Part shown: piece after piece, positions 12,870-27,417 of the stretch
How the letters are laid out: each line of letters begins with the position of its first letter
Numbering within the stretch: the first letter of the stretch is position 1
Assembly (NCBI GenBank): GCA_947629685.1
Contig: CANREP010000019.1
Location: forward strand, 1 to 34,978
Direction of reading: 5' to 3'
Origin: an uncultured Phascolarctobacterium sp.
GTDB lineage: Bacteria; Bacillota; Negativicutes; Acidaminococcales; Acidaminococcaceae
DNA length: 34,978 bases
Translations under genes and position numbers: made by a program
The notes under the pieces: model-generated
Databases searched by the model: none
Told to the model about the DNA's origin: nothing
The model's input: only the letters and a program-made list of their open reading frames with translations

Positions 12870-12898
12870 TTGACAGAAAGCTTGCTTTCTTATATAAT
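12870..12898 (+). promoter_or_regulatory. Perfect-consensus promoter of rpsU-yqeY with palindromic spacer
   Basis: TTGACA (12870-12875), 17-base spacer, TATAAT (12893-12898). The spacer is filled by an inverted repeat, AGAAAGC-TT-GCTTTCT (12875-12890), which could be an operator or a weak hairpin ending the HIT transcript. Expected strong transcription of rpsU. Confidence 0.85.
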
Positions 12899-12913
12899 AG
12901 GTTAGTAAGTGTT

Positions 12914-12980
12914 TCTGGATGTCAATGACATCTGGTAACTATAAATTGCAGATACACTTCCCTAAGTGTGTGGAGGGAGG
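12914..12980 (+). promoter_or_regulatory. Structured 5' leader of rpsU
   Basis: Two perfect hairpins can form in the leader: GATGTC-AAT-GACATC (near 12918-12932) and ACACTT-CCCT-AAGTGT (near 12954-12969). The second ends just before the GGAGGGAGG ribosome binding site (12972-12980). Its position suggests control of translation initiation, perhaps by S21 itself. That role is inference. Confidence 0.45.
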
Positions 12981-12988
12981 GAGAACAG

Positions 12989-13165
12989 ATGGCAGAAATC
13001 AAAGTTGGCAAAAACGAAACTTTAGACAGCGCTTTGCGCAGATTTAAAAGAGCAACCCAAAAAGCAGGTATTCTTTCTGAGGTTAGAAAACGCGAACATT
13101 ATGAAAAACCGAGCGTTGCCCGTAAGAAAAAATCCGAAGCAGCCAGAAAACGTAAAACCAGATAA
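12989..13165 (+). CDS. rpsU: 30S ribosomal protein S21
   Basis: 58-residue basic protein of the small subunit platform. [20 protein letters not shown] matches S21 N-termini, followed by a lysine/arginine-rich tail ([13 protein letters not shown]). The start at 12989 lies 8 bases after GGAGGGAGG; an upstream in-frame start at 12968 would place the ribosome binding site inside the gene. Pairing with yqeY immediately downstream is a standard Firmicute arrangement. Normal length. Confidence 0.97.
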
Positions 13166-13180: not shown

Positions 13181-13630
13181 ATGTCTATAAAAGACCAATT
13201 GACTGAGGATATGAAGCAGGCCATGAAAGACAGAGAAAACGGAAAACTTCGTTTGTCTGTTATCCGTATGGTGCGTGCTAATATCAAAAATGTAGAAATC
13301 AATGACAAGAAAGAACTTTCTGATGATGAAGTTCTGGCAGTCTTGATGAAAGAGGTCAAAATGCGTCAGGATTCTCTGGAAGAATTTCAGAAAGCTGGTC
13401 GCAGTGAATTGGTTGCCCAGGCTGAGGAAGAAATTAAGATTTTGAAAAAATATCTCCCGGAAGCCCTGAGTGATGAAGAATTAAAGGGTATTGTTGCCGA
13501 AGTTGTTGCTGAAGTTGGCGCTACTACCATGAAAGACATGGGTAAAGTTATGCCGGCTGTAATGGCCAAAACCAAGGGACGTGCCGATGGCAAACGTATC
13601 AATGCCATGGTTCGTGAATTACTTAAATAA
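13181..13630 (+). CDS. yqeY: GatB/YqeY domain protein
   Basis: 149-residue protein of the YqeY family, related to the C-terminal tRNA-binding domain of GatB. All-helical; landmarks are LRLSVIRMVRANIKN, RQDSLEEFQKAGR and the C-terminal GKVMPAVMAKTKGRADG. The biochemical role is not settled in the family; a tRNA-linked function is usually assumed. The start at 13181 follows TTGGAGGCGG at the rpsU end (13167-13176). Co-transcribed with rpsU and followed by a strong terminator. Confidence 0.93.
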   Translation: MSIKDQLTEDMKQAMKDRENGKLRLSVIRMVRANIKNVEINDKKELSDDEVLAVLMKEVKMRQDSLEEFQKAGRSELVAQAEEEIKILKKYLPEALSDEELKGIVAEVVAEVGATTMKDMGKVMPAVMAKTKGRADGKRINAMVRELLK

Positions 13631-13637
13631 CAAAATG

Positions 13638-13671
13638 ATAACCGTGCTGGAAAACAGCACGGTTATTTTTT
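13638..13671 (+). terminator. Terminator after yqeY
   Basis: ATAACCGTGCTG (13638-13649), loop GAAAA, CAGCACGGTTAT (13655-13666), then T5 and more T. A 12-bp perfect stem. Confidence 0.92.
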
Positions 13672-24351: not shown

Positions 24352-24601
24352 GTTTTCATATTGTTAACGCGATGATAAAGACAGTAGGCCGAGAAAACAG
24401 GTTCAGCGATCCGGGGATGGTGTAAGCCCGGACAAATGTGGAGACGGCTGAAAATCACTTTGGAGCGGATATATCGAAGCGATAGTAGATATATACGGCT
24501 GGCGCCCGATAAAGCGTTGCGAGTGGCAGATGTATTTGGTCTGTCATGAGGGTGGTACCACGGGTATATACAGTCTCGTCCCTTGCGGACGAGGCTTTTT
24601 T
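24352..24601 (+). promoter_or_regulatory. Isoleucine T-box leader
   Basis: The conserved T-box sequence AGGGTGGTACCACGG is at 24549-24563, and an AUC isoleucine specifier (24454-24456) lies in a GAAAATCACTTT context at the 3' side of stem I. AGGG (24549-24552) can pair with CCCT (24580-24583) as antiterminator, excluding the terminator stem. The downstream gene is ileS, agreeing with the specifier. Read-through is expected when tRNA-Ile is uncharged. Confidence 0.92.
24573..24601 (+). terminator. Regulated terminator of the ileS T-box
   Basis: CTCGTCC (24575-24581), loop CTTGC, GGACGAG (24587-24593), then GC and T6. The 5' arm shares bases with the antiterminator. Confidence 0.88.
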
Positions 24602-24630
24602 GTTTGTCAAAATTATTGGAGGTGTCTATT

Positions 24631-27417
24631 TTGGATTACAGCAAAACACTTAATTTGCCGGAAACAGAGTTCCCCATGCGTGCAGGCCTGCCGCAGAGAG
24701 AGCCGGATTTTCTGAAATTCTGGCAGGAAAATGATATTTATGGTAAAAAACAGGCGCTTCATGCAGGTCATACCAAATTCGTACTGCATGACGGACCGCC
24801 GTATGCTAACGGCCGTATTCATATGGGTACAGCGCTGAATAAGATTTTGAAAGATATTATCATCAAATATAAATATTCCCGCGGCTTTGATACTCCTTAT
24901 GTTCCCGGCTGGGATACTCACGGTATGCCAATCGAGCACGCCGCCATCAACGCCCTAGGTTTGAACCGCAATGAGCTTGACCCGCTTACTCTGCGCAGAA
25001 AATGCCATGATTATGCTTTGGAATGGCTGGACGCACAGCGTGAAGATTTCAAACGCCTGGGTGTTTTAGGCGATTGGGATCATCCCTATGTAACATTGCA
25101 TAAGGATTTTGAAGCTGAACAGATCCGTGTATTTGGTGAAATGGCTAAGAAAGGCTATATCTATAAAGGCAAGAAGACCGTTTACTGGTGCCCGCACTGC
25201 GAAACCGCGCTGGCAGAAGCTGAAATCGAATATGGCGAGCAGAAGACTCCTACCATCTTCGTAAAAATGCCTATCATTAAAGATAACGGTATGTTGCCTG
25301 AAGCTGCTAAAGGTAAAAATGCTTATATGGTAATTTGGACCACTACTCCGTGGACTATGCCGGCTAACGTAGCAGTGGCTCTGAATCCTGCCATCGAATA
25401 TGCCTGGGTAGAGTGTGAAGGCGAAGTGCTGTTCCTGGCAAAAGATTTGCTGGAACAAGTAGGTAAGGTTTGCCATAAGGATTTGAGCAACGTACTGGGA
25501 ACTTGCCTTGGCAAAGACATGGAATTTGCGGAATGCAAACATCCGATGCCTGAACTGGACAGGAAGTCTTTGGTCGTACTTGCTGATTATGTAACTTTAG
25601 AAGCAGGTACCGGCTGCGTACATACTGCTCCTGGTCATGGCGATGTCGACTTTGAAACCGGCCTGAAATATAAACTGCCTATCCTGTGCCCTGTTGATGA
25701 ACAAGGCAAGCTGACTGCCGAAGCAGGCGAGCGCTTTGCCGGTATGTTTGTTTTCGATGCTAATATCCCCATCTTGAAATATCTTGCTGAACTCAACATG
25801 CTGCTGGGTAAGGAAAATATCAAGCACCAATACGCACATTGCTGGCGCTGCAAGAATCCTATCATCTTCCGTGCTACCGCACAGTGGTTTGCTTCCGTTG
25901 ACGGCTTCCGCGATGAAGCGCTGAAAGCTATTGCTGAAGATGTAAAATGGATTCCTTCCTGGGGTGAACAGCGTATCCATAACATGGTTGCTGACCGCCA
26001 TGACTGGTGTATCAGCCGTCAGCGTGTATGGGGCGTGCCTATCCCTGTATTCTACTGTGATGAATGTGGTGAACATCTCATCAACGACGCAACTATCAAT
26101 GCTGTAGCCGGCTGGTTTGAAAAAGAAGGCAGCGATGCATGGTGGGCTCATTCTGCAGAAGAGCTGCTGCCGGAAGGCACTGTCTGCCCCAAATGCGGCG
26201 GCAAACATTTCCATAAAGAAACAGATATTATGGACGTATGGTTTGACAGCGGTTCCACCCATATGGCAGTGGCAAGAAAACGCCCGGAACTGTGCTGGCC
26301 TGTCGATATGTATCTGGAAGGCAGCGATCAGCATCGCGGCTGGTTCCAGTCTTCTTTGCTGACATCCGTTGCCGTTACCGGCAAGGCTCCGTATAAATCT
26401 GTACTGACTCACGGTTATGTAGTAGACGGCGAAGGACGCAAGATGTCTAAGTCTGTCGGCAACGTTATCGTACCGCAGGAAGTTATCAATCAATATGGTG
26501 CGGACATCATCCGTCTGTGGGCGGCTTCTTCTGACTATAAAGCGGATATCCGTATTTCTCCGAAAATTTTAAAACAGCTGTCTGAGGTATACCGTAAGAT
26601 CCGTAACACTATCCGTTACATCCTCGGCAACATCAATGATTTTGATTATGCAAAAGATAAAGTTCCGTTTGGAGAAATGCTTGAGCTTGACCGCTGGGCA
26701 CTGATGCATCTGCAGCTGCTGAAAAAAGAAGTTACTGCGGCATACGAAAGCTATGATTTCCATGTACTGTACCATGCTATCCACAATTTCTGTACAGTAG
26801 AAATGTCCAGCTTCTATCTGGATATTCTGAAAGACCGTCTGTATGCGTATAAAGCTGACAGTAAAGAACGCCGCAGCGCTCAGACTGCTATGTATGAAAT
26901 CCTGATGGATCTCTTGGTTATGCTGACCCCGGTATTGAGCTTTACAACCGAAGAAGTATGGCAGTTTATGAAGAAACCTGCTAATGCTCCTGAATCCGTC
27001 CAGATGCTGCCGTGGCCTGAAATCAAGGAAGAATATCTTGACGAAGCTCTGGAAGCTAAATGGGATAATTTCATCGGTATCCGCAGCGAAATCACTAAGG
27101 TACTGGAAGTTGCGCGCCGTGAAAAGACCATCGGACATTCCTTAGATGCTAAAGTCGAACTTCATGCCGAAGGTGAGGCTTTGGCAATCCTGAAGTCTGT
27201 AGAAAAAGACTTAGCTACTCTGCTGATTGTTTCTCAGGCCGTTATAGTTGAGAATGTAGCAGACGGAGCTGTGGCAACAGGCCGTGAAGACCTTAAAGTA
27301 ACCGTTAAGGCTGCTGAAGGTGAAAAATGTGAACGTTGCTGGATTTACAGCGATGAAGTGGGCAAGGATGCGGAACATCCGACTTTGTGCGCCCGTTGTG
27401 CTGCTGCAGTAAAATAA
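24631..27417 (+). CDS. ileS: Isoleucyl-tRNA synthetase
   Basis: Class Ia synthetase charging tRNA-Ile. 928 residues from TTG at 24631, chosen because GGAGGTG (24618-24624) is 6-7 bases upstream; earlier in-frame starts lie inside the terminator. Motifs are HMGT (64-67, HIGH element) in PPYANGRIH, KMSKS at 604-608, and an editing (CP1) domain with WTTTPWTMPANVA. The C-terminal zinc site is Cys900/903/920/923. This is the bacterial zinc-binding type. The editing threonine-rich region is intact. Located downstream of divIVA, a common Firmicute order. Confidence 0.97.
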   Translation: MDYSKTLNLPETEFPMRAGLPQREPDFLKFWQENDIYGKKQALHAGHTKFVLHDGPPYANGRIHMGTALNKILKDIIIKYKYSRGFDTPYVPGWDTHGMPIEHAAINALGLNRNELDPLTLRRKCHDYALEWLDAQREDFKRLGVLGDWDHPYVTLHKDFEAEQIRVFGEMAKKGYIYKGKKTVYWCPHCETALAEAEIEYGEQKTPTIFVKMPIIKDNGMLPEAAKGKNAYMVIWTTTPWTMPANVAVALNPAIEYAWVECEGEVLFLAKDLLEQVGKVCHKDLSNVLGTCLGKDMEFAECKHPMPELDRKSLVVLADYVTLEAGTGCVHTAPGHGDVDFETGLKYKLPILCPVDEQGKLTAEAGERFAGMFVFDANIPILKYLAELNMLLGKENIKHQYAHCWRCKNPIIFRATAQWFASVDGFRDEALKAIAEDVKWIPSWGEQRIHNMVADRHDWCISRQRVWGVPIPVFYCDECGEHLINDATINAVAGWFEKEGSDAWWAHSAEELLPEGTVCPKCGGKHFHKETDIMDVWFDSGSTHMAVARKRPELCWPVDMYLEGSDQHRGWFQSSLLTSVAVTGKAPYKSVLTHGYVVDGEGRKMSKSVGNVIVPQEVINQYGADIIRLWAASSDYKADIRISPKILKQLSEVYRKIRNTIRYILGNINDFDYAKDKVPFGEMLELDRWALMHLQLLKKEVTAAYESYDFHVLYHAIHNFCTVEMSSFYLDILKDRLYAYKADSKERRSAQTAMYEILMDLLVMLTPVLSFTTEEVWQFMKKPANAPESVQMLPWPEIKEEYLDEALEAKWDNFIGIRSEITKVLEVARREKTIGHSLDAKVELHAEGEALAILKSVEKDLATLLIVSQAVIVENVADGAVATGREDLKVTVKAAEGEKCERCWIYSDEVGKDAEHPTLCARCAAAVK

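Follow-up and report, generated by a model that had tools for sequence, protein, structure and literature searches.

The rpsU locus and its promoter

The window, meaning the whole stretch of 34,978 nt analysed here, corresponds to contig 19 in a genome assembly of 44 contigs that totals 1.78 Mb. It contains rpsU between a hinT-like gene upstream and a yqeY-like gene downstream, with floA located further downstream. NCBIfam matches of the hinT-like gene were below cutoff, and the open reading frame at 13181..13630, which we take to be yqeY, gave only sub-cutoff matches to GatE. The features of the locus are as follows:

12870..12898, + strand: promoter TTGACA-17-TATAAT, matching the consensus in 12/12 positions, 2 nt past the stop codon that ends the hinT-like gene
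12875..12890, + strand: palindrome in the promoter spacer, unconserved and probably incidental
12905..12988, + strand: rpsU mRNA leader of 84 nt, from the predicted +1 (the 7th base after the −10 box) to the base before the ATG
12905..12949, + strand: predicted 5′ helix P1 of the window, in which GUAA (12905-12908) pairs with UUGC (12946-12949) around a lineage insert
12915..12935, + strand: insert hairpin, 12915-12923 with 12927-12935, including the perfect repeat at 12918-12932
12954..12969, + strand: alternative hairpin ACACUU-CCCU-AAGUGU, which excludes the tract-SD helix
12957..12963, + strand: anti-Shine-Dalgarno tract CUUCCCU, whose predicted partner is 12974-12980
12972..12982, + strand: tandem Shine-Dalgarno (SD) sequence GGAGGGAGGGA, the sole exact copy in the genome assembly, at rpsU
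12989..13165, + strand: rpsU, ribosomal protein S21 (NCBIfam TIGR00030), with its ATG at 12989
13181..13630, + strand: yqeY-like gene, which probably follows rpsU as the second gene on its transcript
13637-13667: terminator-like hairpin after the yqeY-like gene

The rpsU upstream regions compared were those of relatives and of a diversity-chosen subset from a 200-genome draw of the class Negativicutes, in which an S21 match was present in 196 genomes. With the window counted, 138 of 140 loci from 33 families and 81 genera were kept with a start codon and leader; the two dropped loci (L044 and L201) had no usable S21 start. The leader analyses excluded one locus at a contig edge (L108, promoter 8/12) and covered the 137 with a promoter match of at least 10/12. 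In L028 and L188 the tract or the SD was not parsable, and the remaining 135 yielded 118 unique leaders, 90 with a short 5′ part (up to 26 nt) and 28 with a long one.

The perfect-consensus promoter claimed in the original prediction was found where it had been placed, with TTGACA at 12870-12875, a 17-nt spacer and TATAAT at 12893-12898, so that 12 of 12 bases match. Across the 138 regions the match was 12/12 in 126, 11/12 in nine, 10/12 in two and 8/12 in the one at the contig edge. Among 414 dinucleotide-shuffled controls 11/12 was reached by two and 12/12 by none. The transcription start is itself a prediction, counted as the 7th base after the −10 box, and this base was a G in 72 of 79 genera.

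The inverted repeat AGAAAGC-TT-GCTTTCT predicted between the two boxes is likewise present at 12875-12890, its first A being the last base of the −35 box. Its 7-nt arms were the longest among the spacers of 79 genera, where the next longest were 5 nt, and the sister species (L007) has a weaker spacer palindrome with 6-nt arms. With one spacer per genus, the mean arm length was 2.90 nt as against 2.76 nt in shuffled spacers. The promoter and the leader are strongly conserved among the relatives compared, the spacer palindrome not. A promoter operator was rejected, as the spacers of the 79 genera were no more palindromic than shuffled ones, and the repression at the promoter proposed for the palindrome is unsupported.

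Architecture of the leader in Negativicutes

Two perfect repeats had been described in the leader, and both were recovered: GATGTCA-A-TGACATC (12918-12932) and ACACTT-CCCT-AAGTGT (12954-12969), the second abutting GTGGAGGGAGGG. As isolated repeats they are hardly more than chance would give, and it is the relatives that decide. Perfect repeats with arms of at least 7 nt and loops of at most 4 nt numbered 30 in the window, as against a mean of 10.1 over 10 shuffled windows. The fold of the window leader (−22.1 kcal/mol, z −1.27) was equalled or undercut by 20 of 200 shuffles, and folding energy alone is therefore no proof.

Of the 137 leaders, 108 measured 42-65 nt and 29 were longer, reaching 106 nt. 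The window's family contributed 26 of these 29, and also has 12 short ones. The order common to the leaders is a 5′ hairpin (P1), a pyrimidine tract, 6-17 nt, the SD and the start codon.

P1, which starts at the predicted first nucleotide, covaries. For the 90 unique leaders whose 5′ part is short, the mean helix formed by a leader's own strands was 4.66 pairs, compared with 4.35 (sd 0.07) for swapped strands, and none of 2000 permutations reached the former. With one leader per genus the count was 1 of 2000, and at the family level 19 of 5000; the strand-swap permutation ignores relatedness, and the most trustworthy of these values is the per-family one. Mononucleotide shuffles gave a mean helix of 2.85. 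Helices of at least 4 pairs were found in 76 of the 90 leaders, and in 62 the helix started exactly at the predicted +1 and ended exactly at the tract.

The P1 helix predicted for the window was paired in 97.7% of cells, with hardly any variation. When P1 and the insert hairpin were taken together in 12 near relatives, 15 cells had changed on both sides; the shuffle mean was 6.0 and none of 500 shuffles reached 15. In the same 12, 89.7% of the cells were paired, and at most 42.1% once the helix partners had been slid by 1-3 columns. As judged from these alignments, the first of the two repeats is part of a lineage insert, which shows covariation in near relatives and lies outside the class-wide core.

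The second repeat behaved differently from a conserved core element. All 23 unique long leaders from the window's family had the hairpin CACUU-(3-6 nt)-AAGUG, which the other 95 unique leaders lacked; in five leaders CACUU and AAGUG were separated by a larger loop. Among the 23, covariation was not found, swapped strands being at least as good in 1731 of 2000 permutations because the strands hardly vary. As a conserved core, ACACUU:AAGUGU was rejected in the 90 whose 5′ part is short, where swapped strands were at least equal in 1998 of 2000. A value of 32 of 2000 obtained for the mixed set of 28 long leaders is a mixed-family artefact, as five of these come from other families. The repeat is best described from the comparison as an alternative fold that is nearly invariant within the window's family. 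Another pairing of ACACUU, with a 5′ AAGUGU at 12907-12912, was dropped by eye; in two near relatives, L012 and L018, these positions read AAACAU.

The tract following P1 was complementary to the SD well beyond shuffled expectation. The best SD-complementary 7-mer averaged −9.50 kcal/mol in the 90 short leaders, as against −5.23 in mononucleotide shuffles, and was stronger in 88 of them. In the 28 long leaders, of which the window's family supplied 23, it averaged −10.53 as against −6.33 and was stronger in all 28; when each family was represented by a single leader, the mean was −9.74 as against −5.31, stronger in 31 of 33. The best complement began at most 4 nt from the tract in 117 of the 118 leaders; in the window leader, its value was matched by 6 of 200 shuffles. 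No such excess was seen outside the class, where 48 of the 60 parsed rpsU leaders were analysed (−5.84 as against −6.00 shuffled; 20/48 stronger), nor in the 23 other open reading frames of the window with an SD (−5.14 against −5.08; 12/23 stronger). The complementarity is a conserved, class-specific feature of the leaders compared, and may function as a helix.

RNAalifold predicted the tract-SD helix unprompted from 30 leaders, with a covariation term of +0.13; in the same run P1 was missing, having been misaligned by MAFFT. Two results weigh against a pairing role. The computed occupancy of the SD was 0.63, only slightly above the 0.56 of shuffled leaders, and was higher in 84 of 118. Covariation of tract and SD was not found at any level: swapped pairs equalled or exceeded own pairs in 909 of 1000 permutations for all leaders, 848 of 1000 per genus and 4912 of 5000 per family, where own pairs were, if anything, slightly worse. 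Own pairs do no better than swapped ones because both sides hardly vary; the tract consists of no more than CCC or CCCC in several families. Covariation was found for P1 and the insert hairpin, and failed to appear for the last hairpin and the tract-SD helix.

The Shine-Dalgarno sequence and restriction to rpsU

The SD of rpsU in the 138 class regions was GGAGGGAGGG in 99, GGAGGGGGGG in 25, GGAGGGGAGGG in eight and another variant in three, with none of these in three. The outside-class set comprised 68 rpsU loci of the phylum, of which eight were unparsed. GGAGGGAGGG or a close variant was found at 135 of the 138 class regions and at 55 of the 60 parsed regions outside. The tandem GGAGGGAGGGA extends beyond the class (L202-L275), in leaders that otherwise look different. 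The exact 11-mer stood just 5′ of rpsU in 27 of 59 phylum-draw genomes with a known S21 place, and away from rpsU it occurred at 50 places in 61 genomes (about 0.8 per genome). The 16S 3′ end was not found in the window's assembly, and the anti-SD was taken from a class-level table (PMC10783764). A stronger computed SD duplex than that of rpsU was given by only one of 32 longer open reading frames of the window, in a comparison of segments differing by one base in length.

Outside the class, the motif AUGGUU was seen by eye a few bases 5′ of the tandem SD in eight leaders (L208-L211, L217, L222, L239 and L252), which perhaps represent a second leader type. GGU stood before the SD, at scattered offsets, in 30 of 73 class leaders and in 28 of 50 from elsewhere in the phylum.

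The tandem SD is also contained in an rpsU primer of a Listeria study (PMC4424878). In that study, stress-resistant variants are described with a point mutation and with 4-bp deletions in the rpsU ribosome-binding site, and rpsU expression was reduced in the point mutant tested. These mutations suggest that the ribosome-binding site of rpsU is of physiological importance (PMC4424878).

A scan for the exact tract and SD pattern in the genome contigs of 84,980 species returned 57 matches, of which 54 were at rpsU; this pattern finds only leaders near the window's type and matched 22 of 38 leaders. An S21 signature followed 50 of the matches, and in three others the S21 start was cut by the end of the locus (L047, L067 and L074). 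Among the rest, L049 was cut before the start codon, and L055, L080 and L083 were unrelated. Two rpsU matches labelled as Acholeplasmataceae (L070 and L071) are probably mislabelled assemblies of the window's family. Viral contigs gave two matches, in near-identical contigs and by eye inside a reading frame without S21. A sequence-only model (R1) run on 199 genomes of the phylum found five matches, four in the class with the window counted and one weak match outside it at an rpsU SD, and is insensitive, having missed two listed class members.

No family of Rfam 15 reached its gathering score for the rpsU leader, the sub-threshold matches around rpsU having E values of 4.9 and 8.6. The only Rfam family in the window is an unrelated T-box leader (RF00230, 111.2 bits) at 24363-24586, directly 5′ of a long open reading frame (24583-27417) that by eye resembles isoleucyl-tRNA synthetase.

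Probable control of rpsU translation

The Negativicutes rpsU leader is real, class-wide and apparently undescribed. Its architecture is conserved in the regions compared, and as far as sequence comparison goes the leader likely controls translation: the translational control that had been suggested for the leader is plausible and is supported by the leader's restriction to rpsU, the covarying P1 and the class-specific SD-complementary tract, while the two hairpins named for it lie outside the class-wide core. We favour, with about even confidence, a cis-acting translational control element of rpsU that can close the SD, most likely under feedback by S21; S21 as the signal is our best guess, and the chances for and against it are about equal. 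Transcription would begin at the first base of P1, and the pyrimidine tract just 3′ of it would pair with the SD and close the ribosome-binding site in the cell. Excess S21 would most likely stabilise this closed state, either directly or in concert with partner proteins, and shut off its own synthesis, and when S21 is short the site would open. A leader that accompanies a single gene would fit autogenous control. The weight given to this reading was unchanged by the results for the last hairpin, because it did not rest on that hairpin.

The leader resembles autogenous ribosomal protein leaders, such as the candidates proposed by Eckert and Weinberg 2020 (PMC7247131), in being a short structured leader before one ribosomal protein gene, in its clade-wide conservation, in the covarying 5′ stem P1, and in its predicted access to the SD. 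It differs from them in matching no Rfam family and in its binding protein, here putatively S21. A term search through PMC7247131, PMC6429828 and PMC11109978, covering their main texts, found neither S21 nor rpsU.

For rpsU control itself, the literature searched, with most subscription papers outside its scope, yielded only the mechanism of Flavobacterium (PMC9976891) and reviews, one of which stated in 2024 that the regulation of E. coli rpsU remains unknown (PMC10931766). In the Flavobacterium case autoregulation rests on a strong SD of rpsU, and the rpsU SD described here may be similarly distinctive. The regulator there is the ribosome itself, whereas the leader described here has a conserved 5′ hairpin and an anti-SD tract in cis; the word "hairpin" is absent from the main text of PMC9976891 by term search. 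Ribosomes lacking S21 might similarly prefer the tandem SD in Negativicutes, the tract setting a threshold such that only these ribosomes open the leader. The near-universal GGAGGGAGGG-type SD inside and outside the class and its rank among the window's open reading frames agree with this, but E. coli S21 is reported to provide SD pairing rather than block it (PMC10931766), which would give the opposite sign outside Bacteroidota. By eye, the anti-SD core is also matched over no greater length than by the usual GGAGG, and we consider such a preference unlikely, if worth weighing.

Hairpins that stabilise the 5′ end of an mRNA, as in ompA, sit at or near the transcript start, and P1 at the predicted +1 has this geometry. 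Together with the 12/12 promoters, the G at +1 and the strong SD, it could form a constitutive high-expression device, in which P1 protects the transcript end and the tract merely sets the level of translation. Unlike ompA-type stabilisers, however, the rpsU hairpin is followed by a conserved SD-complementary tract, and a tract able to close the SD would be expected to reduce expression and not to persist throughout the class in such a device, which we regard as improbable.

S21 is positioned on the 30S platform beside the 16S rRNA 3′ tail. The tract after P1, with CAC followed by pyrimidines, may mimic this tail, and S21 would then read the tract-SD helix as if it were the ribosomal SD-anti-SD helix, for which it would serve as a decoy. 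In such a circuit the tandem SD, found phylum-wide, would have come first, and the tract would have been added in Negativicutes. This elaboration is speculative and rather doubtful. Very unlikely is an RNA thermometer or other physical sensor, in which the tract-SD helix melts under some condition: a short helix closing the SD is indeed predicted, but there is no apparent reason for rpsU alone to carry a sensor. A repressor binding the spacer palindrome is hardly credible, since its perfect 7-nt arms recur, weakened, only in the sister species.

A class-wide rpsU leader outside Bacteroidota would offer a compact and testable system for studying how the S21 content of ribosomes is set.
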